A stretch of DNA of 48,840 nucleotides from Gammaproteobacteria bacterium (GTDB lineage Bacteria > Pseudomonadota > Gammaproteobacteria > Pseudomonadales > Porticoccaceae): NCBI GenBank assembly GCA_003235325.1, contig QJWQ01000132.1, forward strand, positions 1-48,840, written 5' to 3'. Of the stretch, positions 78 through 16,354 are shown one piece after another. How positions within the stretch are numbered: the first letter of the stretch is position 1; each line of letters begins with the position of its first letter. The notes under the pieces are model-generated. The model did no database searches. It saw only the letters and a program-made list of their open reading frames with translations, and was not told where the DNA came from. Position numbers and translations under genes: made by a program.

Positions 78-2912
78 ATGAAACAGTTTCAACAAAAGCC
101 GATTGCCGTAACCGTTTCCATGCTGGTGGCGTCGTCCATCGGTATGGCGGTTGTTACCAAGGCCAGCGCCCAGGAAGAAGAAATCCAGGAAGTGGTCATT
201 ACCGGTATCAAGGGCAGCTTGCAACGTGCCCAGGCGGTGAAGATGGACAGTTCATCCGTGGTCGAGGCGATTTCCGCCGAGGATATCGGTAAGCTGCCCG
301 ACTCCAGTATTGCCGAGTCATTGGCACGGTTGCCCGGCCTGGCCGGTGAGCGCCGTAATGGCCGCACCAGTGGACTCTCGGTTCGCGGTTTCCGGGAGGA
401 CTTTGTCGGCACCACCATGAATGGCCGGGAACTGCTCGGCATCGGCGACAACCGCGGCGTCGAGTATGATCTGTATCCCGCGGAAATCATGAGCGGGGCC
501 GTGGTCTACAAGACGCCGGATGCGTCTCTGCCCGTAGTTGGTGTAGGCGGTACGGTAGACCTGAAAACCGCCCGGCCCTTGGATGTGGCTCCGAGCCTGA
601 CCTTCAACGGCTCCTACGAGATGAACGATCTGGAGTCTCATAATCCCGACTTCGACGATACGGGCAATCGCCTGGCCCTTAGTTACGTAGACCAGTTCGC
701 TGAAGGCAAGGTCGGCGTGGCACTGGCGGTTGCAACTACCGAATCGCCCAGCCAGGAAGAACAATTTGGTGCCTGGGGTTATTCCACCGGCCAGATTACT
801 TCAGGCCCCTACGCCGGATATTACTTGCCGGATGGCATGTCGACATTCTCAATTTCCCGTGTACTTGAACGGGATACTTACTCCGGTGTGCTGCAGTTTG
901 CCCCTACAGAGGGGCTGACCGCGACATTGGATTATCTGTACATTGATTTTTCCGATGCCGGCATCATCCGTGGATTTATCGAGCAAATGCCTCATGCTGC
1001 CGATGGTAGCGGCGTCATCAGTGCCGACGATCAGAATAAGGTTGTAACCTCAGCCACCACATCGGGTTTCGCGTCCGTAATGCGTTCCGACCCATCGGAA
1101 AAAACAGGGGAACTGACCAGCTATGGGTTGAACCTCGAGTACGATCTCAGTGATGCGTGGAAAATGACGTTCGATGCCGCCCACAGTGAAACGGATAAAA
1201 GCGATTTACGGGCCGAGAGTTATGCTGGTGTTGGACGCCCTGGACTGCCCACCCAGGGAGCGCCCACATTTCGTACCTGGGAGTTGTCGGATCCGGGTTT
1301 CGTGATAACCAACAGCACCACCGATTTCTCGGACTACGACCTGATTAAATTGTCAGGGCCTCAGGCCTGGGGCGGCAGTCTGGCGCCGTTTGGCCAGGAG
1401 CCGGGCGATCCGCTGTACCCGCAAGCTGCCTATCCGGATGTCGGTTATGCCCAGGCACAGGACGGTTTTGTCAACGAGGCAATTTTTACGGAAGATCTCG
1501 ACACCGCTCGCTTGAGCTTCAAAAAGCAGGTCGAGGACTCTTTTATTACCTCCATTGAATTCGGGGCACGCTACTCAGACCATACCAAGTCAAAAGTCAA
1601 TTTTGGTGCCTTCCTGACGTCTCCGGTATGGCCCCTGGAAGAAGCTATTCCGCAAGATGCTCGCCGGGGCGTGGCTGATATCAACTGGGCGGGGCTGGGT
1701 GATTACGCAGCCTATGATGCACTGGGACTGATCAAGGGTGGCTATTACACGGAATGGGCTGCCGCGGAACTGGAACCGGATCGGTTGGGCGATACCTACG
1801 AGGTCTCCGAGCAGGTCTGGAGCGAGTTTATCAAACTGGATTTTGATATGTCCCTGGGAGGGATCCAGGTGTTCGGTAATTTTGGCCTCCAGGGTATACA
1901 TACCGAACAGGATGCGTCCGGCTTCGCGTCCCTGGTTACCGATACGCTATTTGTCGAGGCTACTCCGGTCAAGGATGGCATTCGCTATTCCAATGTATTA
2001 CCGAGCTTGAACCTGAATTTCGACCTGGGCAACAGCCAGATGGTGCGTTTTGCCGCGGCCAAGGTGATCAGCCGCCCCCGTATCGACGCGCTTGGTCCCG
2101 GCTCTTCCATCAAGTTCCGGAACAATATTTCGGAAGTGCTGGCTACCGATCCCGCCAAGGGTCCCTGGCTTTCCACTTCAGGCAACGCCAAGTTGCTGCC
2201 CTATGAAGCCAATCAGGCCGACCTGTCCTATGAATGGTATTTCAGCGATATAGGCTATGTAGCGATTACTTACTATTGGAAAGATTTGCTTAACTGGCAC
2301 CGTAGAGGCACAGAAGTCATAGATTACTCGTCATACTATATTCCCGGCTACCATGTAGGCGTAGATAGTATGGGCAACATTTATGAACCGGCTATTTTTA
2401 CCGGAGTTAACACCTTCCAGGAAGATGGCTTGACCGGTGAGGTTGACGGTATTGAATTCCAGTTCAATCTGCCGGTTGGCGATTTTGTCGAAGTGTTGGA
2501 TGGACTCGGGTTTGTCTGGAGTTCCTCATTTACCAACGGTGATCTGGATGACGGCACCCGAATTCCGGGCCTGTCCGAGGAAGTGTACTCAGCAACCGTT
2601 TTCTATGAGAAAGCGGGTTTCGAGTTCCGGGTATCCTGGACCAAGCGGAGCGACTTCCTGTCCGAAGACCGTGGTGGCAGCAACACCATCGCCGAGGTTA
2701 CCCGCAACGGTACCGAGTTGATAGATGCCCAAATCAGCTACGACTTTATCGATACCGGCATTCCCTACCTCGAAGGGCTGCGGATTTCTCTGCAGGGACA
2801 AAACCTGACGGACGAGGATGACACCAATATCCTTTCTGATACCGGTTTTGTCTCAAAAAACCAGCACTTTGGAACCAACTACCTCTTATCATTGAACTAC
2901 TCGTTCTGGTAA
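78..2912 (+). CDS. TonB-dependent receptor, carbohydrate type
   Basis: Outer-membrane active transporter of 944 residues. A signal peptide covers about residues 1-31 (hydrophobic stretch, cleavage near KASA-Q). A TonB-box-like segment (EVVITGIKGSLQ) and a plug domain to about residue 165 follow, with RLPGLAGERRNGR and LSVRGF typical of the Xanthomonas/Caulobacter receptor class; the rest is a 22-strand barrel ending in aromatic Trp (LNYSFW). The ATG is preceded by a GGGGG run. Its neighbours are a six-hairpin glycosidase, halogenase-like proteins and GH13 enzymes, so import of alpha-glucan oligosaccharides is the likely role. The substrate is inferred from context only; there is no SusD partner. 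The promoter lies at or before the window edge. Confidence 0.93.
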   Translation: MKQFQQKPIAVTVSMLVASSIGMAVVTKASAQEEEIQEVVITGIKGSLQRAQAVKMDSSSVVEAISAEDIGKLPDSSIAESLARLPGLAGERRNGRTSGLSVRGFREDFVGTTMNGRELLGIGDNRGVEYDLYPAEIMSGAVVYKTPDASLPVVGVGGTVDLKTARPLDVAPSLTFNGSYEMNDLESHNPDFDDTGNRLALSYVDQFAEGKVGVALAVATTESPSQEEQFGAWGYSTGQITSGPYAGYYLPDGMSTFSISRVLERDTYSGVLQFAPTEGLTATLDYLYIDFSDAGIIRGFIEQMPHAADGSGVISADDQNKVVTSATTSGFASVMRSDPSEKTGELTSYGLNLEYDLSDAWKMTFDAAHSETDKSDLRAESYAGVGRPGLPTQGAPTFRTWELSDPGFVITNSTTDFSDYDLIKLSGPQAWGGSLAPFGQEPGDPLYPQAAYPDVGYAQAQDGFVNEAIFTEDLDTARLSFKKQVEDSFITSIEFGARYSDHTKSKVNFGAFLTSPVWPLEEAIPQDARRGVADINWAGLGDYAAYDALGLIKGGYYTEWAAAELEPDRLGDTYEVSEQVWSEFIKLDFDMSLGGIQVFGNFGLQGIHTEQDASGFASLVTDTLFVEATPVKDGIRYSNVLPSLNLNFDLGNSQMVRFAAAKVISRPRIDALGPGSSIKFRNNISEVLATDPAKGPWLSTSGNAKLLPYEANQADLSYEWYFSDIGYVAITYYWKDLLNWHRRGTEVIDYSSYYIPGYHVGVDSMGNIYEPAIFTGVNTFQEDGLTGEVDGIEFQFNLPVGDFVEVLDGLGFVWSSSFTNGDLDDGTRIPGLSEEVYSATVFYEKAGFEFRVSWTKRSDFLSEDRGGSNTIAEVTRNGTELIDAQISYDFIDTGIPYLEGLRISLQGQNLTDEDDTNILSDTGFVSKNQHFGTNYLLSLNYSFW

Positions 2913-2934
2913 GAAAAAAGTTGATTAATAAGAA

Positions 2935-2963
2935 CCCACCGGTATTAGCCGGTGGGTTTTTTT
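2935..2963 (+). terminator. Rho-independent terminator after the first TBDR
   Basis: Perfect 8-bp stem CCCACCGG / CCGGTGGG with a 6-nt loop, followed by seven T residues, 22 bases after the receptor stop codon. It separates the TBDR transcript from the glycosidase gene downstream. Confidence 0.92.
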
Positions 2964-3330
2964 CTGGCCGATGCGAAACAATCGATGACGAACCGAAATA
3001 ACAATGTAACTGCCTTCAGTTGCGCTTTGACTGATTGGAATTCGGACTCGCTTAGGAAAACCTGATGTTTTATGAGTTAGCCAAAATTACCTGAAAGGCA
3101 CCAGTATCTTCGGAGATGTAGGTGCCACGATCCTATCTACGGCGAAATTTAAAACTTTACCGAATCCAGTTGAACTCGGAGCTACTCCAGATTAGTTCTG
3201 ATTGACGACTCTGGAGAAAAAATTACCCATTTCAGTAAAAGTGAATCAACTCCGGAAATCTTCTGGAACTCCTGAAAAAGTCTAGTGCGACTAGCCACAA
3301 ACTTATCAAATTACAAATCAGGGGCTACCC
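2964..3330 (+). other. Intergenic region upstream of the glycosidase
   Basis: No credible gene in this 367-base AT-richer stretch. It has a weak inverted repeat CTCCAGA (3185-3191) / TCTGGAG (3210-3216). At 3273-3292 there is a degenerate relative of the hairpin repeat at 16290 and 33021 (TGAAAAAGTC, then GACT). A promoter for the next gene must lie here, but no convincing -35/-10 pair was picked out. Confidence 0.5.
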
Positions 3331-5928
3331 ATGGTTAAATACCATTTACCAAGAAATACTGTGCTTATAGCATTCGCGCTGGTCTCCCTGTCGCAGGCTT
3401 GTACCGGTGAAGATTCGCCAACAATGGCAGCCGCAATGAAAACCGACAGTGAGCAGTTGCACTTCGGTACCTGGGACGGCAGAACCGAGAGGGTGTCCTT
3501 TGCCATTAGCAATGAGCGGGACGGTCTGCGCACCTACAAACAGACCTCTACCGCGATGCAACGGGACGATGCGCCGTCGACAGGCGCCTATAGTGAAGAT
3601 TCTGCCTGGCCGCGAGTGCGCTCCGGCGACCTCGCCTTTGATGCACTCTTTGCCCTGGCCGTCGACGAGATGAAACTGGACGCGGTCAGCGACATCCGCG
3701 ACGATGCCTATAACGGCGGCCAGGCCATTCCCTGCTCCTGCTTCGAGACCGGCGCCAAGTGGCACTATGTCTGGACCCGGGATCTTTCCTACGCCGCCTG
3801 GCTGAGCCTGGCGATGCTCGACCCGGAACGGGTGCGCAACTCCCTCGAGTTCAAGCTTTCCGGTTACCGGGAAGGTGTCAGCAAACCGCAGGCTGCGGCC
3901 GGCAGCGCTGACGGGCTGCAGATTATCCAGGACACCGGTAGCGGCGGTAGTTGGCCGATCAGTACGGATCGTGTGACCTGGGCTTTCGGTGCCATGGCAG
4001 CGCTCTACAGTCTGCCAACAACCGAACGCAGGGAGTTTGCCGCCGAGGCGCTGAGAGCCATCGCCAACACCCTCGACAATGACCTGCTCGCCGCCTACGA
4101 CCCGGATACCGGTCTCTTTGGCGGCGAGCAGTCCTTCCTCGACTGGCGGGAGCAGACCTATGCCACGTGGATTCCCAATCATCTCTCTTCGATGGCCACC
4201 TCCAAGTCGGTTTCCACCAATGCCGCCTTTTACCAGGCCATGACCCTGGCGGTACAACTGGCAGGGGAACTGGGAGCACAGGAGGTGGCCGCCAAATACC
4301 AGGCCCGCGCCGACGCACTCAAAGCGGCCATCAACAAGCACCTGTGGCTGGAGGATGCCGGCCTCTACAGCAGCCTGACTGCCGGCCACTACGACGGCGT
4401 GCGGATGCACAAGTTTGACTGGCTCGGGCAGGCGCTGACCATTATTACCGGCATCGCCGACGAGGAAAAACGGCGGAAAATCCTGGCCAGCTATCCCCAC
4501 GGCCCCATGGGGGCGCCGGTGATCTTTCCCCAGCAGCCTGGTGTTCCTGTATATCACAATCGGGCCATCTGGCCCTTCGCGACCGCCTACGGCCTCAAGG
4601 CCGCCAAGCTTGGCAATAATGTCGCTGTAGCTGACAGCGCCATGGAATTGCTGATTCGGGGCGCTTCCCTGAACCTGTCCAATATGGAAAACCTGGAGTG
4701 GTTGTCAGCCCAGGCCATGTGGCGCGAACCGGAAAGCCCGGAACTGTCCGGCCCGGTGATCAACTCCAAGCGCCAACTCTGGTCGGTCGGTGCCTACCTG
4801 AGCCTGGTGATCAACGATGTTTTCGGCATCGAGACCACGCCAGATGGGCTGAAGGTTGCACCTTACATTACCAGTCGCCTGCGCAGCCGGTATCTGGGGC
4901 ACTCGGATCGGATCGAGTTGCAGAATCTGTCTTTATGGGGCAAGACCCTGGACGTCAGCATTGAACTGCCGCCAGCAACCGATCAGCCAGGCGTGTACAG
5001 TATCAGCGCGATCAGCCTCAATGGTTCCGCCAGCGACGGGCGGATATCTGCCGGTGACCTGCAAGACAAAAATACAATCCTGATTAAACTGGGAGCAGTC
5101 GTTCCCGGAGATTCGACCATCAACCGGGTGGATTCCACCCCCGGGAAATTCGACGAGGCGGTGTTCGCCCCCTATGAACCGAAAATCAAGGTCGGTAAGG
5201 AAGACGGTAAAGCCACCGTGGCCATTCTTGATGATCGCAACCGGGGCGAGATCGAGTACCGGATTTTTCGCAACGGCATGCCGGTGGCGGCTGGACTGGG
5301 TACCGGCAAGTGGATAGATGAAAACCCCGACCCGGTACAATCCTGCTACGCTGCCGTAGCAATATTTAAATCTTCCGGCAACAGATCCCACCACAGCCAA
5401 CCCCACTGTACCAATCAGGGCCAGTACTTTGCCGCCGATGCCGATAACGTTATCAGCAACCTGGCTGTCGCCAACATAACCGAGGGCAAAAAGTCCAATA
5501 CCATCGGCAGCAGCACACCGGTTATTAAGGACTGGGGACTTCCCGATGACCAATTTGACGTTAGCGACATAGCAATAGACGAGCCCGGCACCTATGCCTT
5601 TCAGATCCGGTATTACAATACCCATCAAACGGTCAATACGGGTATCACCAATGGCATAAAGTGGATGGATGTCACCGACGCTGATGGTAATGTGGTCGGC
5701 GGCGGAGTGGTGCAATTGCCTCACAATTACCCGGAGCAGCAGCCGCTGTTTTCCACCCCGTTGGAGGTTGATCTGGCGGCAGGCGCATACAACCTGAGCC
5801 TGACCGACTTCTACAATATGAGCTACCTGACCAACAACCGGACTTACTCGTCTGCCGGTGGCCACGGAGGCGCAGTCAACCGCTTCGATATCTACGGTGT
5901 GCGGGTGATTCCGCTTAGCCACCCTTAA
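3331..5928 (+). CDS. Secreted six-hairpin glycoside hydrolase with C-terminal beta domains
   Basis: An 865-residue exported protein. The N-terminus is hydrophobic up to LSQAC, a possible but non-ideal lipobox. Residues about 85-530 resemble an (alpha/alpha)6-barrel glycosidase of the glucoamylase/GH63-like superfamily: WHYVWTRDLSYAAW, GSWPISTDRVTWAFGA, FDWLGQALTIITG and HNRAIWPFATAYGLKAA. A beta-rich middle follows. The last 150 residues (DEPGTYAFQIRYYN onward) look like a jelly-roll carbohydrate-binding module. Between them is a Cys- and His-containing segment (SCYAAVAIF, HSQPHC). The exact GH family cannot be fixed by eye. With GH13 neighbours, exo-acting alpha-glucan cleavage at the cell surface or in the periplasm is the best guess. 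Confidence 0.8.
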   Translation: MVKYHLPRNTVLIAFALVSLSQACTGEDSPTMAAAMKTDSEQLHFGTWDGRTERVSFAISNERDGLRTYKQTSTAMQRDDAPSTGAYSEDSAWPRVRSGDLAFDALFALAVDEMKLDAVSDIRDDAYNGGQAIPCSCFETGAKWHYVWTRDLSYAAWLSLAMLDPERVRNSLEFKLSGYREGVSKPQAAAGSADGLQIIQDTGSGGSWPISTDRVTWAFGAMAALYSLPTTERREFAAEALRAIANTLDNDLLAAYDPDTGLFGGEQSFLDWREQTYATWIPNHLSSMATSKSVSTNAAFYQAMTLAVQLAGELGAQEVAAKYQARADALKAAINKHLWLEDAGLYSSLTAGHYDGVRMHKFDWLGQALTIITGIADEEKRRKILASYPHGPMGAPVIFPQQPGVPVYHNRAIWPFATAYGLKAAKLGNNVAVADSAMELLIRGASLNLSNMENLEWLSAQAMWREPESPELSGPVINSKRQLWSVGAYLSLVINDVFGIETTPDGLKVAPYITSRLRSRYLGHSDRIELQNLSLWGKTLDVSIELPPATDQPGVYSISAISLNGSASDGRISAGDLQDKNTILIKLGAVVPGDSTINRVDSTPGKFDEAVFAPYEPKIKVGKEDGKATVAILDDRNRGEIEYRIFRNGMPVAAGLGTGKWIDENPDPVQSCYAAVAIFKSSGNRSHHSQPHCTNQGQYFAADADNVISNLAVANITEGKKSNTIGSSTPVIKDWGLPDDQFDVSDIAIDEPGTYAFQIRYYNTHQTVNTGITNGIKWMDVTDADGNVVGGGVVQLPHNYPEQQPLFSTPLEVDLAAGAYNLSLTDFYNMSYLTNNRTYSSAGGHGGAVNRFDIYGVRVIPLSHP

Positions 5929-6161
5929 CTGGCCAGTCAAATTTGTGCTGCTGGTTAATTTGGTTGTATCGTCGCCTCGGAAAATCCGGGGCAACTAAAT
6001 TGGATTTCTGAAATCGCAAAGTCCAAAATCGAGGACGCCGTAGACGCCGGCTTATCGTAGTTGGTGGTACACCACCCCAGCTACCATCGAGGACATTCTT
6101 ACTCAAAACACAGCAGGTCAGCCTGTTAGTTATTCAGTGGAGGGTATGGCGAGTAGAGGCA

Positions 6162-7661
6162 ATGGAGAACCGAATTAAAAAGGTTGTTGTGGTCGGCGGC
6201 GGCACCGCCGGCTGGATGTCGGCCGCTCTGTTGCGGAAGGTTCTGGGCGCCCAGATGGCTATCGAACTGGTGGAATCCGACGCCATCGGCATTATAGGCG
6301 TCGGCGAGGCGACGATCCCACCGATTCAGAATGTCAACAATGTGCTGGGCTTGGACGAAGCCGAGTTTCTGCGGGAAACCAGGGCAACCATCAAACTGGC
6401 CATCCGTTTTGAAAACTGGCGAGTGCCCGGTGAGAGTTACTACCATACCTTCGGCGCACCCGGCAGAAGCCAGGCCTTTTGTCAGTTCCACCACTACTGG
6501 AACCGGGCCCGGCAGTCCGGTTACCAGTCCAATCTCTGGGAATACGATCTCAATTACCTGTGCGCCGAAGCGGGCAAGTTTGCCCGGATGCAGGTCAAGG
6601 ACCCGATCTGGGAGATGCCCTACGCCTATCACTTCGATTCCGGCCTTTACGGCGCCTATTTACGCAAATACAGTGAACAACACGGGGTGATCCGCACAGA
6701 GGGCCTGATCGAGCAGGTGGGCATTCACCCCGAGAGCGGCCACGTGGAAACCTTGACACTGAAGAACGGCAGGAGGGTCAACGGTGATTTCTTTATCGAC
6801 TGTTCCGGAATGCGCGGCCTGCTTATCCAGCAGCACCTGGGTACCGGTTACGAGGACTGGATTCACTGGTTGCCCTGTGACCGCGCCATGGCGGTACCGT
6901 CGCAGCGATTCGAAAAAACCCTGCCCTTTACCCGCTCCATTGCCCACACCGCCGGCTGGCAGTGGCGGATACCCCTGCAACACCGCAACGGCAATGGCCT
7001 GGTCTATAGTAGTAACCACTACAGCGACGATGAGGCGGCCAGCATCCTGCTAAGCAATCTCGACTCGGAAGCCCTCGGCGAGCCGAAGATCATTCCCTTC
7101 CGTACTGGCCGTGCCCGCAAGCAGTGGAACCGCAATGTGGTTGCCGTCGGTTTGTCCAGCGGCTTCCTGGAGCCGCTGGAATCCACCAGTATTTATCTGA
7201 TCCAATCGGCGATTGTGCGCCTGCTGCACCTGTTTCCCCACGCCGGTGTCACCCCGGAACTGGTGGCCGAATACAATCGTCAGTCCCAAACCGAATACGA
7301 ACTGATCCGGGATTTCATTATCCTGCACTACCATGTCAACGAGCGGGACGACAGCCAGTTCTGGCGGGATCTGCGCAACATGGATATCCCCGATCGCCTC
7401 AGCCAGAGGCTGCAATTGTTCCGCGCCAATGGTGGCCTGTTCCAGGATCAACTGGATATCTTCAAGGATTCATCCTGGCTGCAGGTGATGCTGGGTCAGG
7501 GCATAGTGCCCCGTGATTACCACCCGCTGGCGGACAATCTGACCGATGTCCAGCTCCGGGAAAGTCTGGAAAAGATCAAGAAAATTAAGCGGGAACCGCT
7601 GCCGCAGATGCCCGAGCACGACCAGTTTCTGGAAATGTATTGTCGGGTCAAGGCCGGCTGA
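6162..7661 (+). CDS. Flavin-dependent tryptophan-halogenase family protein (first copy)
   Basis: A 499-residue member of the PrnA-like flavin-dependent halogenase family. Seen: the N-terminal FAD motif VVGGGTAGWMSA; a lysine in TIKLAIRFENW (K78) at the place of the catalytic lysine; the family hallmark WxWxIP as GWQWRIP; and GFLEPLEST, where the catalytic glutamate of characterised enzymes lies. The full active-site set suggests a live enzyme that uses FADH2, oxygen and halide. Family members beside TBDRs in Xanthomonas and Brevundimonas brominate indoles in vitro, but their physiological role is unknown. No flavin reductase is adjacent. The stop overlaps the start of the next gene (TGATG), so the two are translationally coupled. 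Confidence 0.9.
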   Translation: MENRIKKVVVVGGGTAGWMSAALLRKVLGAQMAIELVESDAIGIIGVGEATIPPIQNVNNVLGLDEAEFLRETRATIKLAIRFENWRVPGESYYHTFGAPGRSQAFCQFHHYWNRARQSGYQSNLWEYDLNYLCAEAGKFARMQVKDPIWEMPYAYHFDSGLYGAYLRKYSEQHGVIRTEGLIEQVGIHPESGHVETLTLKNGRRVNGDFFIDCSGMRGLLIQQHLGTGYEDWIHWLPCDRAMAVPSQRFEKTLPFTRSIAHTAGWQWRIPLQHRNGNGLVYSSNHYSDDEAASILLSNLDSEALGEPKIIPFRTGRARKQWNRNVVAVGLSSGFLEPLESTSIYLIQSAIVRLLHLFPHAGVTPELVAEYNRQSQTEYELIRDFIILHYHVNERDDSQFWRDLRNMDIPDRLSQRLQLFRANGGLFQDQLDIFKDSSWLQVMLGQGIVPRDYHPLADNLTDVQLRESLEKIKKIKREPLPQMPEHDQFLEMYCRVKAG

Positions 7662-9175
7662 TGACCCACAGGATTGCCATTCTGGGGGGCGGAACCGCAG
7701 GCTGGATGGCCGCCAACCTGTTCGCCAAAAAATGGGCGCCGGACCAGGTTGCCGTGCAACTGATTGAAGCGCCGGACATCGGCATCATCGGTGTCGGCGA
7801 AGGCTCGACACCAACCCTGAAGCGCTTCTTCCAGATGCTGGAGATCGAGGATGCCGACTGGATGCCGCGCTGCAATGCCACCTACAAGGTCAGCATCCGT
7901 TTTTCCGGCTGGAGCCCGGCATCGGGGGTTGCCGACTACAGCCACCCCTTCCTGTCGCAACTGGATACCTTTACCCAGAACCCGTTTGTACAGAACTGCC
8001 GGAATCGTCGACTGGGTGTCGATGTGCACACCCGGCCGGGTGACTTTTTTATCAATGGCGTGCTGGCGCAACAGGGCAAGGGCCCGAAGACGCCGGACAA
8101 CTTTCCGTTTCGCATGGAATACGGCTATCACTTTGACTCGGGCCTGCTCGGCCAGTACCTGGCGGAACTGGCGGTTACCCGCGGAGTGACCCACAGCAGG
8201 GCCCGTATTGTCGATGTGCAAAGAACCGGGGCGGGCGACATCGCCGCGCTGGTGACCGATGCGGGCGAGCAGATTGAGGCGGACTTCTTTATCGATTGCA
8301 GCGGCTTTGCCTCGGTGCTGATGCAGAAGACGCTCGGGGTCCGGTTCAACAGCTTTAAATCCAACCTGTTTAACGATGCCGCGGTGGTGATGCCCACCCC
8401 CATCGGCGAGGACATTCCGGTGGAAACGTTGTCCACCGCGCTTGCCAACGGCTGGTGCTGGAAAATACCGTTGACCAATCGCTTTGGCAACGGCTACGTC
8501 TACAGCTCGGATTTTATCTCCCCTGACGCCGCCGAGACTGAACTCCGTACCTTGCTCGGCACTCTGGACAGCGAACAGCCGGCCCGGCACCTGAAAATGA
8601 AGGTGGGTCAACTGGAGAAGCACTGGCACCGCAATTGTCTGGCCCTGGGACTGTCCCAGGGGTTTATCGAGCCCCTGGAAGCGACTGCCCTGCACCTGGT
8701 ACAGATTTGCATTGAGCTGTTTATCAGCAAATACCAGGAGGGAAATTTCGGCCCCGCCCTGAGGGACGAATTCAACAGTAAAATCACCGAAAGATTTGAG
8801 CGGGTCCGCGACTATATCGTGGCCCATTACAAATTGAACACCCGCGACGACAGCGACTACTGGAAGGCCAACCGGGACAATATGCAGCTTTCAGACTCGC
8901 TGCGTCATATCCTCGACGTCTGGTATCGCCGCGGTGACCTTACCGGGGAAATAGAGCGGCAAAAAATTGAATCACATTTTGGCACCCTGTCCTGGCATTG
9001 CCTGCTGGCCGGCTACGGCGCATTCCCGCCCTTTAGTAGGGAGCAACCGCCAAACGCGGATTTCTATCGGGACCGGGGGGTTGAGAGTTTTCTCAGGGGC
9101 TGCGGACTCAATTTTGCCAGTCATCGACAGAATCTGGCCAGGCTGGGTGAAGCGCGAAAGCCGGACAAGCGATGA
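7661..9175 (+). CDS. Flavin-dependent tryptophan-halogenase family protein (second copy)
   Basis: A 504-residue paralogue of the preceding halogenase. The start at 7661 is chosen because ATG overlaps the upstream stop (TGATG) and puts the FAD motif ILGGGTAGWMAA at residue 7, as in the family. Also seen: lysine in TYKVSIRFSGW, the WxWxIP hallmark as GWCWKIP, and GFIEPLEAT. All expected catalytic positions are therefore kept in both copies, while overall sequence is clearly divergent, which points to different substrates or a heteromeric arrangement. Its last four bases (ATGA) overlap the next gene. The substrate is unknown. Confidence 0.9.
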   Translation: MTHRIAILGGGTAGWMAANLFAKKWAPDQVAVQLIEAPDIGIIGVGEGSTPTLKRFFQMLEIEDADWMPRCNATYKVSIRFSGWSPASGVADYSHPFLSQLDTFTQNPFVQNCRNRRLGVDVHTRPGDFFINGVLAQQGKGPKTPDNFPFRMEYGYHFDSGLLGQYLAELAVTRGVTHSRARIVDVQRTGAGDIAALVTDAGEQIEADFFIDCSGFASVLMQKTLGVRFNSFKSNLFNDAAVVMPTPIGEDIPVETLSTALANGWCWKIPLTNRFGNGYVYSSDFISPDAAETELRTLLGTLDSEQPARHLKMKVGQLEKHWHRNCLALGLSQGFIEPLEATALHLVQICIELFISKYQEGNFGPALRDEFNSKITERFERVRDYIVAHYKLNTRDDSDYWKANRDNMQLSDSLRHILDVWYRRGDLTGEIERQKIESHFGTLSWHCLLAGYGAFPPFSREQPPNADFYRDRGVESFLRGCGLNFASHRQNLARLGEARKPDKR

Positions 9176-9891
9176 TTCGCCTGAACTCCGACCTGACCTT
9201 GCAGAGGATTCCAATCGATGACCGGCAATTCTGCATCGTTATCGACAATTTTCTGGAAAGCCCGCAGGCGCTGATCGAATTCGCCTGCAACAATGCCGAT
9301 CATTTCTATACGACCCCGGCCGGTTACCCGGGCCCCGTAATGAACCTGAACCCCGGTCTGCTCGATGATTTTCACCGGTTTATCCGCAGCCGAATGAGCA
9401 GGGAGTTTGGATTCCTGCGGGGTGACCCAAGACTCAAGACCGGGCTGACGATGACAACGCTGCCACCCGAACGGCTGGCCAATTTTCAGCGGCTCTGTCA
9501 CATCGACCCGCGGGGCGAACCGGGGCGGCGCAATTATGCGGCTCTGGTGTACCTGTACGACAATGAGAAACTCGGCGGTACCGCCTTCTATCGCTGGAAA
9601 AGGCCCGATATTGTCAACCGGGCGCTGGAGCTGGAACTACTGGACCCGTCGGCTGCAGCGACGTTCCTCGCGGAACATTCTGCGACATTCAGGCAAGCGC
9701 CCCGGTATATGACGGCGTCCAATGAACTGGCTGAACTGCTGACCGACATCCCCCCGCGTTTTAATCGCATGATTTTTTATTCGGGGGAAATTCCCCACAG
9801 CGGCCATATAACATCGCCGGCATTGTTGTCAAACGATTTCAGACTCGGCCGCCTGACACTTAATTGTTTTGCCAGTGTATTACCCAGGTAA
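9172..9891 (+). CDS. DUF6445-type protein, 2-oxoglutarate/Fe oxygenase-like
   Basis: A 239-residue cytoplasmic protein with no signal peptide, coupled to the second halogenase by an ATGA overlap. It resembles the DUF6445 family found beside halogenase-like genes. A possible Fe(II)/2-oxoglutarate dioxygenase triad is visible: HID in RLCHIDPRGE (about residue 111), a distal histidine in EIPHSGHI, then RLTLNCF with a candidate 2-oxoglutarate arginine. The beta-strand LVYLYDNEKLGGTAFY between them is typical of prolyl-hydroxylase-like folds. Function is not established; the fold and metal site are inferences from motif order. Confidence 0.75.
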   Translation: MIRLNSDLTLQRIPIDDRQFCIVIDNFLESPQALIEFACNNADHFYTTPAGYPGPVMNLNPGLLDDFHRFIRSRMSREFGFLRGDPRLKTGLTMTTLPPERLANFQRLCHIDPRGEPGRRNYAALVYLYDNEKLGGTAFYRWKRPDIVNRALELELLDPSAAATFLAEHSATFRQAPRYMTASNELAELLTDIPPRFNRMIFYSGEIPHSGHITSPALLSNDFRLGRLTLNCFASVLPR

Positions 9892-10000: not shown

Positions 10001-11770
10001 TTATTTCAGGGCAAAAATGACGGCCTGGTAGGGCTCCAGGTTGATAGTTGTGCCGTCAATGCGAACCTGGTCATAGTTATTGATCTGTACATCTCCCAGG
10101 CTTATTTCTTTCGGCAAAGTCGCCACGGCATTTCCGCTAGAAAAATTCAGCAATACCAGCATGCCCTCCTGTGCCAGCTTTCGGGTATAGGCATAAATCT
10201 GCTTATGATCCGGCAGCAGCAACTGGTAATCTCCGTAAACAAGGACCAGATTGTCTTTTCTCAGCCTGACCATTTTGCGGAAATAATTCAGGCAGCTGCT
10301 TTTGTCTCTATTTTCAGTTTCGACATTGATTAGGTCATGATTGCCGTTGACGGGAAGCCAGGGTGTACCGGTGGTAAAGCCGGCATGTTCAGAATCGTCC
10401 CATTGCATGGGAGTCCGGCCATTGTCACGGGACAGGAAATTCAATTTTTTCATGAACAGGTCCATATCCTCGCCGTCGGCCAGGGCCTTTTTATAGCCAT
10501 TGATGGCGGCAATGTCCCGGTACTGGTCGATGCTGTCAAAATTGATGTTGGTCATGCCCAGTTCGTCGCCGTAATAGGCGTATGGCGTGCCGCGCATGCT
10601 GAGAATAAAAGTGTTGAGCATTTTGCCGGAGGGGGCCCGAAATTCCGGGCTGTCGTTGCCGAACCGGGAGACCATGCGGGCCTGATCATGGTTTGCCAGG
10701 AAGATGGAAATCCAGCCTTTTTTGGCAAAGGAGGCATCCCAGTCGGTAAACGACTTTTTCAGGTCCGCCAGTTTATAGCCGCCATAACCGGCAAGATCCA
10801 CGCCCTCGAAATGGTAAGCCATTTGCAATTCCTTTCTATCGGCATCCACCAGGGAGTGAGCGTCCTCAAAGCTGCTGCCGGCACCTTCCGACACGGCAAA
10901 GACATCGTATTTGCTCAGGACTTCGTCATACATCTCCCGCAAGTACTTGTGAAGATTGGGCCCCATGCCGTAATACTTGATGACGTTCCTCACGTCCTTT
11001 TCATAACCTGCCGGCAAAGCCGGGAAGCTGGTGTCTTTTGATACAAACTGGAAGGCGTCGAGGCGAAAACCATCGACGCCCTTCTCTGCCCAGAATTTCA
11101 TGATGTCATAGACTTCCTGGCGCACCTTGGGGTTTTCCCAGTTCAGATCCGGCTGTTTTTGCGAGAAATAGTGCAGGTAGTAGGCATCGGTCTGGGCGTC
11201 ATATTTCCAGGCCTCGCCTTTCTCGTCGAAATAACTCCAGCGGTAAGGTGGCTTGCCTTTTTCCGCCGGCCACCAGTGGTAGTAGTCCCGGTAGGGATTG
11301 TCACGGGAACTGCGCGACTGCCTGAACCATTCGTGCTCGTCACTGGAATGATTGACCACCACGTCCATGACGAACTTGATGCCCCGCTCGTGCATGCCTT
11401 TGAGCATGGCATCGAAATCCTCCATGGTGCCGAACTCTTTCATGATCGCCCGGTAGTCATCGATATCGTAGCCGTTGTCATCGTTGGGTGAACTGTAGAT
11501 CGGATTGAGCCAGACCATATCCACCCCCAGGCTTTTTATGTAGTCGAGCTCCTGGATGATGCCTTTCAAATCACCGATGCCATCGCCATCGGTGTCCTTG
11601 AAGCTGCGGGGATAAATCTGATAGATAACCCCCTCTTTCCACCATTGTCGATCAGTTTTTTGCCGGGATTCACCGCCGATGTCGACGGCAGGATCAGCTT
11701 CGTTATTGGATTTTGAACAGCCAGACATAAAGGCAAGACCGAGAAAGCAGATTAGCGTAAGTACCTTCAT
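10001..11770 (-). CDS. GH13 alpha-glucosidase lipoprotein (copy A)
   Basis: A 589-residue exported alpha-amylase-family enzyme. The N-terminus MKVLTLICFLGLAFMSGC is a lipoprotein signal with lipobox MSGC, so it is membrane-anchored. The catalytic domain carries the GH13 signatures: IYQIYPRSFKDTDGDGIGDL, MDVVVNHSSDEHEW, GVDGFRLDAF (nucleophile Asp), FAVSEG (general acid Glu) and FLANHDQAR (third acid). Length and QPDLNWENP fit the oligo-1,6-glucosidase/alpha-glucosidase subgroup. A C-terminal beta domain ends YQAVIFALK. It is strikingly similar to the enzyme at 19676-21433, so the two are recent paralogues. It converges with the halogenase operon; no terminator was seen in the 109-base gap. 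Confidence 0.93.
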   Translation of the reverse strand: MKVLTLICFLGLAFMSGCSKSNNEADPAVDIGGESRQKTDRQWWKEGVIYQIYPRSFKDTDGDGIGDLKGIIQELDYIKSLGVDMVWLNPIYSSPNDDNGYDIDDYRAIMKEFGTMEDFDAMLKGMHERGIKFVMDVVVNHSSDEHEWFRQSRSSRDNPYRDYYHWWPAEKGKPPYRWSYFDEKGEAWKYDAQTDAYYLHYFSQKQPDLNWENPKVRQEVYDIMKFWAEKGVDGFRLDAFQFVSKDTSFPALPAGYEKDVRNVIKYYGMGPNLHKYLREMYDEVLSKYDVFAVSEGAGSSFEDAHSLVDADRKELQMAYHFEGVDLAGYGGYKLADLKKSFTDWDASFAKKGWISIFLANHDQARMVSRFGNDSPEFRAPSGKMLNTFILSMRGTPYAYYGDELGMTNINFDSIDQYRDIAAINGYKKALADGEDMDLFMKKLNFLSRDNGRTPMQWDDSEHAGFTTGTPWLPVNGNHDLINVETENRDKSSCLNYFRKMVRLRKDNLVLVYGDYQLLLPDHKQIYAYTRKLAQEGMLVLLNFSSGNAVATLPKEISLGDVQINNYDQVRIDGTTINLEPYQAVIFALK

Positions 11771-11916
11771 TAGACGCCACCTGAAGTTGGGCTAATTATT
11801 AAAACGGCAATTGGGGTAGCCGCAATGGTGATAACCCATAATGTTTTGTTGCGCTTTTGCAATGCCACCCCTGCAACCTGGTAATTAAATAAATATAGCA
11901 ACCCACTTATCCACCT

Positions 11917-12005
11917 TCATTGCCAACCCGAAGGGTGGAACAAGTCAATTTACCGCTTGTTAGACAGCTTCTTGTTGGATTGCTTCCCTGTCTTCGCAAT
12001 GACAG
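11917..12005. repeat. Dispersed palindromic repeat, copy 1
   Basis: Ends TCATTGCCAACCC (left) and TTCGCAATGACAG (right) are inverted, and the inner parts read AAGTCAATT and GGATTGCTTCC, giving an imperfect palindrome of about 88 bases. It belongs to the same family as 21454-21534 and 23326-23360. This copy sits in the 387-base gap between two GH13 genes. The rest of that gap (11771-12157) shows no gene; a fragment AGCAATCCGTCATGACA near 12071 may be a further scrap of the repeat. Confidence 0.75.
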
Positions 12006-12157: not shown

Positions 12158-13888
12158 TCAATCACTCTGGTACAACCGTGCTTCCCAGGGTTTCAGCGCC
12201 AGTTCTCCGGTTGCAATCTGGCTCCTGCTCACTTTCTGATTGGTAATCACCAGTTGGTAATTATTGAAGTCATGCCCCGTTGCGAAATGAACCTCGTCGC
12301 CGGACATGTTCAACACCACCAGGTAAGTTCTGTTCCTGCCGGTGCGGGTGTAGGCGAATATCTGCTCGTGTTCCGGGGCGATGTCGTAGTACTCGCCGTA
12401 AATCAGGTCGAGATTGCCCCGGCGAATATCCAGCAGTTGCCGGTAAAAGTTGAATATCGAATCGGGATTTTTCAGGCTGGCTTCAACATTTACCGTTTTG
12501 TAGTTGGGGTTGACCGCCAGCCAGCTTGAATCGCCGGTGGTGAACCCGCCCAGTGGCGCTGAAGACCACTGCATGGGCGTACGGGCGTGGTCTCGCGAGT
12601 TCTTGTTCAACTCGGCCAGGTATTCCACGGCACTGACGCCACTATCCATTACCTGCTGGTAGTTACCCTTGATTTCCACGTCATCAAACTGGTCGAAAGC
12701 AGTAAATGGATAATTGGTCATGCCGATCTCGTCGCCCTGATAGAGAAACGGAGTGCCCTTCTGAGTCAACAGGAGCATGGCCAGGAGCCTGGCGGAAGCC
12801 ATCCGGTAAGCCGGCGAGTCATCGCCGAATTTGCTGACAGGCCGGGGATTATCGTGATTGGACAAAAAAATTGTCGGCCAATGGTGGCTATCGAGGGCAC
12901 TTGGCATGGTGAACAGGCCCTTTAACTGCGGCAGCGTCCAGTCCCGTTGGTACCAGTTGTCGCGACCGATTCGAACTATATCAAACAGAAAGGCCAGGTC
13001 GATTTCCTGTCGTCTTTCGTCCGTCATGCGCAGTGCCCGAGCCGGGCTGACGCCAAAGGCCTCACCCACGGTCATCACATCGTACCGGGACAGCACCTTG
13101 CGGTTCATTTCATTGAGGAATTCGTGCAACCGGGGCCCCGAAGCATAGACCGTTTCCGGGTGGCGCAGGGTCTCGGCGTCCATGTCGGGAAAATCCTGAT
13201 CCTTGGAAATCAAGGGGATAACGTCCATGCGAAAGCCGTCGACGCCCTTGTCCAGCCAGAAGCGCATCAGGGAATAGACCTCTTCCCGCAGTTTGGGGTT
13301 TTCCCAGTTCAGGTCCGGCTGCTTTCGGTGAAAGTAGTGCAGGTAGTACTCGCCGTCCGGGCCGGCCTGCTGCCAGGCCGAACCGCCAAAAAAGGAGGGC
13401 CAGTTGTTGGGTGGGCCGCCGTCCACACCCGGCCGCCAGATGTAGTAATTCCGGTAGGGGTTGTCCTTTGACGACATGCTCTGCTGGAACCACTCATGCT
13501 CGTCGCTGGAATGGTTGACCACCAGGTCAATGATCAGCTTGATACCCCGCTGCTTGAGCCCGGCCAGCATCTGGTCAAAATCTTCCATGGTGCCAAACTC
13601 AGCCATGACCTTGCGGTAATCGCGAATATCGTAACCGTTATCGGCGTTAGGGGAATCGAAATGGGGACTGAGCCAGACGATATCGACACCCAGCCTGTCC
13701 AGATAATCCAGCTCGGAAATAATACCCTGAATATCACCGATACCGTCACCGTTGGCATCCCTGAAGGACCGGGGATAGATCTGGTAGACCACCTGCTCCT
13801 TCCACCACTCGCGCTTATAGGATTGATATCTGGATAAATCCGATGCTGCCGCCACAGTTTCAGCCGTCTCCGCAAGGGGTGAAAGCAA
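12158..13888 (-). CDS. GH13 alpha-glucosidase with a signal peptide lacking a standard start codon
   Basis: GH13 enzyme close to oligo-1,6-glucosidases: IYQIYPRSFRDANGDGIGDI, IDLVVNHSSDEHEW, VDGFRMDVI (nucleophile Asp), VGEAFG (acid Glu) and FLSNHDNPR. The coordinate given is the first in-frame start-like codon, a TTG at 13888, but it falls inside a good signal peptide. Upstream in frame the sequence reads LKRKKSKHSKLAALVLAGAA before SILLSPLAE, and a Shine-Dalgarno GGAG lies at 13966-13969. No ATG, GTG or TTG occurs between the in-frame stop at 13973-13975 and 13888; only ATC, TTA and CTG codons are present. The true start may be non-canonical, mutated or a sequencing error. The gene is divergent from the sigma factor. 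Confidence 0.88.
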   Translation of the reverse strand: MLSPLAETAETVAAASDLSRYQSYKREWWKEQVVYQIYPRSFRDANGDGIGDIQGIISELDYLDRLGVDIVWLSPHFDSPNADNGYDIRDYRKVMAEFGTMEDFDQMLAGLKQRGIKLIIDLVVNHSSDEHEWFQQSMSSKDNPYRNYYIWRPGVDGGPPNNWPSFFGGSAWQQAGPDGEYYLHYFHRKQPDLNWENPKLREEVYSLMRFWLDKGVDGFRMDVIPLISKDQDFPDMDAETLRHPETVYASGPRLHEFLNEMNRKVLSRYDVMTVGEAFGVSPARALRMTDERRQEIDLAFLFDIVRIGRDNWYQRDWTLPQLKGLFTMPSALDSHHWPTIFLSNHDNPRPVSKFGDDSPAYRMASARLLAMLLLTQKGTPFLYQGDEIGMTNYPFTAFDQFDDVEIKGNYQQVMDSGVSAVEYLAELNKNSRDHARTPMQWSSAPLGGFTTGDSSWLAVNPNYKTVNVEASLKNPDSIFNFYRQLLDIRRGNLDLIYGEYYDIAPEHEQIFAYTRTGRNRTYLVVLNMSGDEVHFATGHDFNNYQLVITNQKVSRSQIATGELALKPWEARLYQSD

Positions 13889-13960: not shown

Positions 13961-14428
13961 TGATTCTCCGATTTATCGCTATTCCTGGCGCTTTGATAAT
14001 CTTTCTTTATTTTGCAGTAGCGGACAATGCGATGTATGTCAGGTCAGTAAAAACATCAGAGAGTTTTTTTCATTTTAGCCCGTTGTTCTTTATCATACGC
14101 GACCGACGGTAAATAAGTATAAAACGGGATGCTATCAACGATACTCCGGAAAACATGTGCCAATGGCGCCCCGCCAACACTGCCTGCCAATGAGTATTAA
14201 CAGGTCCTTAAAACAGGCGTTTGATTTTCCTATGCTGGAGGTCCCAAAAAGTGCGTTTTAAGACTCTTCACAGGTATATAGCCATATGCTGGCGTTAGAG
14301 CTTCCGCATCGACACGGCAACGCACATCCGGAATCCGGTGTTCGAATAATATTAAGCGTGCCGCAATCCCCTGTCGAAGCGTGCTGGTTCTGTTGTTTCC
14401 ACGACCTGCCAAACGCCTGCTGCGGACT
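13961..14428. other. Divergent intergenic region between GH13 gene and ECF sigma gene
   Basis: About 470 bases with no convincing gene. It must hold the divergent promoters for the minus-strand glucosidase and the plus-strand sigma factor. TATGCTGG occurs twice (14231 and 14284) but no operator symmetry was recognised. Confidence 0.4.
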
Positions 14429-14959
14429 ATGAGCAAACTCTCGAAAGAGCAGATTTCCGCGCTTTTTCTCGGCAGGAAGGCCGAATTACTGCGGTTTTTG
14501 TCACGACGCCTGCCGGATGAGGACGTCGCCAGGGACCTGGCTCAGGATACCTATCTGCGTATGCTGAAATTTAAAAAGGCAGACCAGATCAGGAATCTCG
14601 AAGCCTATCTGTTTCGCATCGCCGGGAATCTGGTCAGTGAATACTGGTCCAGCAAGAGCAAAAGAGCTGCAGTGGAAGAAGAACCGACAGATTTCGAATC
14701 GTTGCCCGGGGAGCAGACTCCTCCGGATGAGGCCCTCGAGAAGCAGCGGGCGCTGGAGGCATTGCAGAAGGCCATCAGCCTTTTGCCCGAAGTGCAGCAG
14801 CGGGTATTGGTGCTGCATCGCCGCGATGGTTTGACTTACGACGAGATTGCCGACGAACTGGGAATCTCGCGGGATATGGTTAAGAAACACCTTAGCAAGG
14901 CGCTGGTGCGGTGCCGTGAATATCTCAAGCTTGCGCGGGTGGAGCAGACAGATGGCTAA
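14429..14959 (+). CDS. ECF sigma-70 factor, FecI-like
   Basis: A 176-residue extracytoplasmic-function sigma factor. The start at 14429 (ATGAGCAAACTC) gives a normal length; an upstream ATG at 14381 would add an atypical leader. Region 2 runs from about residue 15 to 80 (FLSRRLPDEDVARDLAQDTYLRML, then NLEAYLFRIAGNL). Region 4 is near the C-terminus (LLPEVQQRVLVLHRRDGLTYDEIA, then ISRDMVKKHLSKAL). It overlaps the following fecR-like gene by 8 bases, the usual FecI/FecR arrangement. It probably transcribes the TBDR downstream and perhaps the GH13 genes when the receptor binds ligand. Confidence 0.93.
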   Translation: MSKLSKEQISALFLGRKAELLRFLSRRLPDEDVARDLAQDTYLRMLKFKKADQIRNLEAYLFRIAGNLVSEYWSSKSKRAAVEEEPTDFESLPGEQTPPDEALEKQRALEALQKAISLLPEVQQRVLVLHRRDGLTYDEIADELGISRDMVKKHLSKALVRCREYLKLARVEQTDG

Positions 14960-16178
14960 CGATAACAAAAAGATCGTCGAAGAGGCGGCCAAGTGGTTCG
15001 TGACCTTGCGCGATACCAGGGAGCTGTCGGCGGCGGAAGAGTTGCAATGGCCGCAGGAATTCAGTAACTGGCTCAAGCAGTCAGATGAGCATGTTCACGA
15101 GTACCTGATGATCAGTCAGGTCTGGGGGGATGTCGGCGAACTGGAAACACCCGTCGAGATCGAACAGGTCGGGGCGGACGAAGGCGAGGCTGCCGGCAAG
15201 CCGGGCGCTGATGGCGCAGATAGGGCCCCGGTGTCGGTTGCCAGGGATCACAGCCAGGCTGCGGCAGTTGCAGCATCCCCGGAATCGGCTTCCGCTCCAC
15301 GCCAGCGACGAATTAGATGGCCATATTACGCCGTGGCTGCCGGCTTGCTGCTGGCCCTGTCAGCGCTGTTCTTCTGGCCCTCTCCGGCCCGACTTTATGA
15401 GACCGGGTTAGGGGAGCAGCGCACGGTATCCCTGGCAGATGGCTCTACTGTAAAGCTTAATACCCTGTCTGCAATACGGTTCAGTTTTGAAGACGAAGCG
15501 CGGTGGGTGCAATTGATCCGGGGCGAGGCGTTGTTTTACGTGAAGCCGGACTATCAACGGCCGTTTATCGTTGATACCAGGGTCGCCAGCGGGAGGGCGT
15601 TCGTCAAGGTGCTGGGTACGACATTCAATATCTATCAAAAAGACCGGGAAACCGCCGTAACCGTTCTGGAAGGGAGAGTACTGGTGGCGCCTGGAGCATA
15701 CGACCGGGCTGTGGCGCGACCGACCCCCGAAAAAACCCGGCAGGGCCCGAAAAGTGGAATGGACCAGGGTGGCAAGGACCGTGTTGAAAAGACCGCCTCG
15801 GGTTTACAGCAGGTTGAACTGCAGTCCGGACAGCAGGCAGTCCTGATGGTCGCCGAATCAGATTCGGGCGCCAGAGAGGGGCCGGACAGGCCAATCGATC
15901 TGCAAGTTATCAACGATGTCGATACCACCAGGTTCATTGCCTGGACCGAACGCAGGCTGGTGTTTGACGGCCAATCGCTGGCGTTAATCGCGGAAGAATT
16001 CAATCGTTACAACCCGCGCCAACTGGAAATTGAGTCTGCCGCGCTGGCTTCGCTTCAGCTCAGCGGCGTATTCAGCAGCAGTGATCCCGATTCCCTGATT
16101 TTGTATATCAGTCAAATTCGCGATATAACGGTCACTACGAGAGCCGATGGCGCTCGGGTTATTCGTGAGAAGAAATGA
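14952..16178 (+). CDS. FecR-family anti-sigma regulator
   Basis: A 408-residue transmembrane signalling protein. The start at 14952 (ATGGCTAACG) overlaps the sigma-factor stop and gives the usual N-terminus. The cytoplasmic N-terminal domain (EEAAKWFVTLRD, then EFSNWLKQSDEHVHEYL) binds sigma. An acidic/Ala-rich linker follows. One membrane segment lies near residue 125 (YYAVAAGLLLALSALFFW). The periplasmic FecR domain shows LGEQRTVSLADGSTVKLNT, then IRGEALFYV and a C-terminal STN-like part (FDGQSLALIAEEFNRYN). It relays the signal from the adjacent TBDR to the sigma factor. An unusual charged insert sits at about residues 255-300 (TPEKTRQGPKSGMDQGG). Confidence 0.92.
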   Translation: MANDNKKIVEEAAKWFVTLRDTRELSAAEELQWPQEFSNWLKQSDEHVHEYLMISQVWGDVGELETPVEIEQVGADEGEAAGKPGADGADRAPVSVARDHSQAAAVAASPESASAPRQRRIRWPYYAVAAGLLLALSALFFWPSPARLYETGLGEQRTVSLADGSTVKLNTLSAIRFSFEDEARWVQLIRGEALFYVKPDYQRPFIVDTRVASGRAFVKVLGTTFNIYQKDRETAVTVLEGRVLVAPGAYDRAVARPTPEKTRQGPKSGMDQGGKDRVEKTASGLQQVELQSGQQAVLMVAESDSGAREGPDRPIDLQVINDVDTTRFIAWTERRLVFDGQSLALIAEEFNRYNPRQLEIESAALASLQLSGVFSSSDPDSLILYISQIRDITVTTRADGARVIREKK

Positions 16179-16257
16179 CTTGAAGGACGTCATTCTCCCA
16201 TTCGTAAGCCGCTAATTCCTGAATATTCGCCAGCCGCTCAGCACGGCAATGTTGGGG

Positions 16258-16287
16258 GCAAACGAAAATTCGGATTTTTTCGTTTGC
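16258..16287. other. Perfect 11-bp inverted repeat between fecR and the receptor gene
   Basis: GCAAACGAAAA (16258-16268) pairs perfectly with TTTTCGTTTGC (16277-16287) around an 8-base loop. There is no T-tract after the stem, so it is not an ordinary terminator. It lies 80 bases past the FecR stop and 68 bases before the TBDR start. A regulatory hairpin or a transcript-processing site are possibilities. Confidence 0.7.
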
Positions 16288-16289
16288 GA

Positions 16290-16320
16290 GTTTTGAAAGA
16301 GTCTGGAAGACTTTTTCAAC
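16290..16320. repeat. Hairpin repeat, copy 1
   Basis: Imperfect hairpin with arms TTGAAAGAGTCT (16293-16304) and AGACTTTTTCAA (16308-16319) around GGA. The same layout (TTGAAA, AGTCTGGA, GACT, TTTCAA) recurs at 33021-33052, and degenerately near 3273, so this looks like a dispersed palindromic element. Confidence 0.6.
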
Positions 16321-16354
16321 ACCCTAGCTAATAGAAATCCTCCAGACGTAATAC

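Follow-up and report, generated by a model that had tools for sequence, protein, structure and literature searches.

Two flavin-dependent halogenase genes and a DUF6445 gene beside a TonB-Xanth-Caul receptor in a Porticoccaceae genome

Halogenases of the BrvH type are widespread among Gram-negative genomes and under development as biocatalysts. The locus described here raises the question of what two halogenase-like genes and a gene for a DUF6445 protein might do between a TonB-dependent receptor (TBDR) and a series of GH13 genes, and on which substrate the three products could act. ORFs of the window, i.e. of the entire 48,840 nt stretch of gammaproteobacterial DNA that was analysed, were searched with profiles and compared with loci collected from other genomes.

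Layout of the locus and the two halogenases

The genes for the flavin-dependent halogenases (FDHs), FDH-A (6162..7661; PF04820, 614.7 bits) and FDH-B (7661..9175; PF04820, 417.4 bits), and for the DUF6445 protein (9172..9891; PF20043, 170.1 bits, E 8.8e-50) lie on the plus strand. The FDH-B start overlaps the FDH-A stop in a TGATG (7659..7663) and the DUF6445 start overlaps the FDH-B stop in an ATGA (9172..9175), as read in the plus-strand sequence. Upstream on the same strand are a TBDR of the TonB-Xanth-Caul subfamily (78..2912; TIGR01782, 500.7 bits) and a gene for an (alpha/alpha)6-type glycosidase-like (6-hairpin) protein (3331..5928; matches to PF22422, PF17389 and PF01204), probably a lipoprotein judging by eye from its LSQAC motif. 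Downstream, two minus-strand GH13 genes (10001-11770 and 12158-13888; PF00128, 493 and 498 bits for the pair) converge with the three-gene cassette, and the third and fourth GH13 genes of the window follow on the plus strand (19676-21433 and 21689-23086). The three overlapping genes, their position between a TBDR/glycosidase pair and four GH13 genes and the lack of reductase or biosynthetic partners had all been described in a first-pass annotation, with which the sequence and the profile matches agree. With the glycosidase gene and gaps of 418 and 233 bp separating the receptor from FDH-A, a single transcript is no more than a possibility; a scan for promoters and terminators returned sites no commoner than in shuffled sequences.

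Both halogenases are, from their sequences, intact members of a known family to which they add new representatives. They contain the GxGxxG motif (GGGTAG in both), the catalytic lysine (ATIKLAI in FDH-A and ATYKVSI in FDH-B) and WxWxIP (GWQWRIP and GWCWKIP), as had been noticed before, and in addition the glutamate corresponding to Glu346 of PrnA (FLEPLEST and FIEPLEAT). These features are shared with the free tryptophan halogenases PrnA, RebH, Thal and PyrH, which are nevertheless distant from the window enzymes (at most 286 bits for FDH-A and about 299 bits for FDH-B). By sequence, FDH-A is a member of the BrvH/Xcc4156 group, with scores of 579 bits against 9luq, 513 against Xcc4156 (PDB 6y1w) and 464 against BrvH (PDB 6frl), compared with 286 bits against PrnA. 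FDH-B, in contrast, scores only 264 bits against BrvH and 263 against Xcc4156, several tryptophan halogenases scoring higher; it is roughly equidistant from all solved halogenases and falls in a separate clade of 11 rows with a support of 100 in the FDH tree. The brvH gene is itself adjoined by a second FDH gene, 42.7% identical (PMC5945002).

Unlike the free tryptophan halogenases, the window enzymes are accompanied by no flavin reductase, NRPS/PKS or other biosynthetic-cluster gene among the window ORFs scanned, and the three Flavin_Reduct genes of the source genome, an assembly of 189 contigs, are all on other contigs. The missing reductase partner might indicate that halogenation is not the activity of these enzymes in vivo, and that they instead work as flavin monooxygenases or generate hypohalous acid, peroxide or redox signals; uncoupled flavin chemistry is indeed common in this family. 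We consider this improbable, given that FDH-A is near the active BrvH and that the lysine required for halogenation, together with the glutamate, is retained in 119 of the 122 FDHs of the loci collected here.

The DUF6445 protein

A search of the DUF6445 sequence against the PDB returned no relatives, and the predicted structure was more informative. The AF2 model (pLDDT 94.2, pTM 0.90) has a double-stranded beta-helix of the P4H-like fold, and its structural matches, among which are both protein hydroxylases and antibiotic-tailoring enzymes, are led by OGFOD1 (Foldseek E 6e-6; Z 15.7 over 179 residues). As in OGFOD1, Tpa1, PHD2, LH3 and PolD, the modelled fold combines an HxD...H site with a basic residue for 2-oxoglutarate, although identity to P4H-like oxygenases is about 10-17%. 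The metal triad and the distal arginine of the 2OG/Fe(II) oxygenases correspond to H110, D112, H209 and R227, which are invariant in the 23 sequences aligned. Because this invariant HxD...H...R pattern coincides with a confident model matching OGFOD1, the protein is best read as a predicted 2-oxoglutarate/Fe(II) oxygenase. The first-pass annotation had suggested an Fe/2-oxoglutarate enzyme with a double-stranded beta-helix in 9172-9891, and both the site and the fold on which that suggestion depended were found (pLDDT 94); the structural assignment, a prediction, is new to this analysis. The window protein and its two nearest relatives have the sequence GGTAFYRW where the other aligned members mostly have GGTxFYR[HQ] (the L165 protein was compared by identity only). 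A search of the open literature, with subscription papers outside its scope, found no paper naming DUF6445 and no description of a receptor-halogenase module.

Linkage to the receptors

Eighty DUF6445 loci plus about forty from further genomes were gathered. Most were picked for DUF6445, many of them via a pattern favouring GGTxFYR[HQ]. The loci are not independent of one another phylogenetically and a few of them overlap; since, in addition, their genes were called from ORFs and home-made HMMs, the following counts are only indicative. An FDH gene is directly followed by DUF6445 in 45 pairs from 44 loci, with a median spacing of -4 nt and 34 pairs at 10 nt or less, and for the 25 cases of neighbouring FDH genes the median is -1 nt. 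Within 9 kb, an FDH is present near 76 of the 128 DUF6445 genes (and absent from 52) and a TBDR near 83. By a hand count from tables, a strong FDH is encoded in 28 of the 30 genomes with DUF6445, whereas the figure for all genomes is 63 of 398. A recurring gene order is TBDR-(FDH)-SapC-Cupin_8-FDH-DUF6445: the cassette often also holds SapC, for which a confident structural model gave no fold matches, and a JmjC-type Cupin_8 protein, a second 2OG-type enzyme whose members in these operons have HxD and mostly WWH.

From the side of the halogenases, 40 FDH loci were taken from a phylum survey, 20 of them BrvH-like and 20 lower-scoring. A TBDR is nearby in 31 (18 of the BrvH-like and 13 of the lower-scoring loci), which bears out the earlier statement that halogenase-like genes recur beside TBDRs; DUF6445 occurs in none of the 40. 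Of the proposed association of halogenases with both partners, the receptor part thus stands, while DUF6445 must be regarded as an accessory and not an obligate partner: it leans on FDH/TBDR loci, but the FDHs do not need it. From the side of the receptors, the loci around the TonB-Xanth-Caul receptors of five genomes contain 65 TBDRs, 21 of which have module genes within 7.5 kb. Linkage to FDHs is clustered on the receptor tree, requiring 11 changes compared with 33.5 after shuffling (0 of 500), and the similarities of TBDRs and FDHs across genomes are correlated (r 0.51). The main text of the BrvH paper mentions neither TonB nor a receptor (PMC5945002).

Orthologous TBDR-FDH-A-FDH-B units were found in four other genomes (L270, L285, L307 and L308), confirming that the halogenase pair is recurrent. 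As regards the heteromeric enzyme suggested in the first-pass annotation, the two FDHs thus prove to be inherited together and their genes to be coupled, and the proteins may form a complex. Identity to the window is 63-68% for FDH-A, 59-70% for FDH-B and 45-53% for the receptor; synonymous sites are near saturation, and the FDHs, at 0.21-0.29 non-synonymous changes per site, are more conserved than the receptor, at 0.31-0.37. The stretches fetched around all four units include GH13 genes, which in L285 are separated from the unit by a second receptor. The gap between TBDR and FDH-A is empty in all four, which makes the glycosidase gene at 3331-5928 specific to the window in this comparison, and their fetched stretches contain no DUF6445. 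In the window, a divergent DUF6445 protein is thus added to a conserved receptor/FDH pair of the alpha-glucan type, and we regard this three-gene, receptor-coupled form as new. The association as a whole is real, conserved and only partly explained.

That the genes are mere passengers whose adjacency has no functional meaning appears highly improbable. Such an explanation can appeal to the computational nature of the support and to the fragmentation of the window genome into 189 contigs. However, it has to accommodate four orthologous units whose FDHs are still 59-70% identical with synonymous sites near saturation, overlaps repeated across loci, and the genome co-occurrence of DUF6445 and FDH (28/30 versus 63/398). 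Recurrence as orthologous units, together with the overlap of FDH and DUF6445 genes in dozens of loci, places the pairing beyond chance.

Candidate substrates of the cassette

In the receptor tree the window TBDR belongs to a clade with those of L270, L238, L252 and others, and all ten other members of this clade have FDH and GH13 genes; it thus groups with GH13-associated receptors, as expected for an alpha-glucan (MalA-like) locus. In the MalA-type maltodextrin TBDR loci of Caulobacter, a TonB-Xanth-Caul receptor likewise lies beside GH13 genes. The likeness is one of gene content, and the window differs in having no LacI gene among the ORFs scanned and in the addition of the FDH pair and DUF6445. 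The first-pass annotation had implied a tie to glucan or to a sugar-linked aromatic. In that case a small aromatic compound, e.g. an aromatic glycoside, would be imported by the receptor with the alpha-glucan, halogenated by the FDHs and hydroxylated by the DUF6445 protein. The GH13 and FDH genes of the receptor clade are in line with this, as is the bromination of indole by BrvH in vitro, although the activity of BrvH on indole is low and the authors of that work are doubtful about indole as the natural substrate (PMC5945002). Across the collected loci the tie found no support. FDH-linked TBDRs adjoin GH95, agarase-type, CBM15, GH115/GH43, GH81 or GH13 genes, thus including xylan-, agar- and laminarin-type genes, and others have peptidase, DsbD or aldolase genes as neighbours, some without any glycosidase. 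An imported small aromatic is therefore rather unlikely in our view, even though the window's own receptor nonetheless sits in a GH13-associated clade.

The cassette tracks the TBDR family and not glucan or any one sugar, and its substrate is therefore most likely common to the receptor systems. Our best explanation, to which we assign a probability of about 0.5, is that the three genes form an oxidative-tailoring cassette that works in the cytoplasm for the adjacent TonB-Xanth-Caul receptor system, on a substrate shared by such systems. FDH-A, FDH-B and DUF6445 would be co-translated as soluble enzymes, located in the cytoplasm since their sequences lack a signal peptide. The two FDHs would take FADH2 from a reductase encoded elsewhere, plus O2 and halide, and use them to halogenate (or oxygenate) some aromatic group that is rich in electrons; DUF6445, with Fe(II) and 2-oxoglutarate, would add a hydroxyl group to that substrate or to a partner. 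The gene structure, the intact catalytic residues, the predicted DUF6445 fold with its conserved metal-site residues and the conservation of linkage are results, whereas we infer the catalysis, the sharing of a substrate and the nature of that substrate, for which a polypeptide, or some other molecule common to the receptor systems, is more likely than a glucan or a glucan-linked aromatic. Recurrence with a nutrient-uptake receptor and not with one sugar narrows the search for the role of these unexplained, widespread halogenases, and the receptor link speaks against a search for the substrate that is directed at sugars or at secondary metabolites. The link to one receptor family, to DUF6445 and to SapC/Cupin_8 provides a defined, testable system for the natural role of BrvH-type enzymes.

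A more specific proposal, which we put forward tentatively and hold to be rather unlikely, is that tandem halogenases and JmjC-type/P4H-type hydroxylases (together with SapC) are dedicated to the post-translational modification of TonB receptors, or of peptides that partner them, such that a polypeptide made with the receptor would be halogenated and hydroxylated. If true, flavin halogenases would here have a function that lies outside secondary metabolism. There is little room for a separate precursor peptide gene between receptor and FDH, the TBDR-FDH gaps being too short as a rule: for 57 linked TBDRs the distance to the start of the next FDH, SapC or Cupin_8 gene is mostly no more than about 300 bp.

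Taken furthest, the polypeptide reading, itself a special case of the tailoring cassette, would have the receptor precursor as the substrate, with the FDHs and 2OG enzymes modifying TBDR residues before export. Consistent with it, FDHs follow immediately after some of the paralogous receptors, this linkage is clustered on the receptor tree, and protein hydroxylases are among the closest folds of DUF6445. However, comparison of linked and unlinked receptors revealed no conserved target residue: no aromatic column separates the two well enough for a common target, the most enriched tryptophan columns reaching 61% and 72% of linked receptors with Ala and Lys at these positions in the window receptor. 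Co-variation of TBDR and FDH, present across genomes, lacked significance within them (10 and 6 pairs). We thus consider modification of the receptor itself quite unlikely. A precedent is nevertheless provided by QhpG, a flavoprotein that dihydroxylates peptidyl tryptophan in the cytoplasm before export and whose substrate channel has been compared with the HOCl tunnel found in FDHs (PMC7876137). QhpG differs in that it hydroxylates and does not halogenate, and in being part of the qhp operon; FDH-B matches the QhpG model weakly, with 31 bits compared to a cut-off of 240.

Receptor, first halogenase and signalling genes

In the trees, the closest relatives of the TonB-dependent receptor (TBDR) and of FDH-A, the first of the two flavin-dependent halogenases (FDHs), both within window 78-7661, are their counterparts in L270, a locus from a genome of another order, which lie nearer to the window proteins than do those of the same-order genomes sampled. 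Horizontal transfer of the receptor and FDH-A is a possible reading of these phylogenies. The GH13 region encloses genes (14381-19114) for an ECF sigma factor, a FecR-like protein and an STN-domain TBDR, which, judged by their domains, are a cell-surface signalling trio.

DUF6445 proteins with and without a halogenase

Contig C132 of the window genome (L037) carries another window-like DUF6445 gene (16204-16947; 45% identical), which adjoins an FDH truncated where the contig stops; this contig also has a Flavin_Reduct gene (11546-11950). Both proteins share the variant GGTAFYRW, encoded at 9574-9597 in the window, while most other DUF6445 proteins in the alignment have GGTxFYR[HQ]. In Pelomonas/Roseateles-type genomes (L061, L062, L064, L072, L077, L078, L081 and L086), DUF6445 adjoins a TBDR and a GH3 gene, with no FDH within 9 kb of it.

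SapC and halogenases lacking the catalytic lysine

Among the collected loci, FDHs of this type are often adjoined by SapC (PF07277). The AF2 model of the SapC on contig C7 of the window genome (L220:6902-7690) is confident (pLDDT 92.6) and gave no significant match to PDB folds; the modelled fold is possibly one unsolved so far. Tandem arrays of intact FDHs also enclose copies whose catalytic lysine has been lost (L040:15769-17205, L227:11886-13346 and L256:11855-13270), which are perhaps non-catalytic partners.
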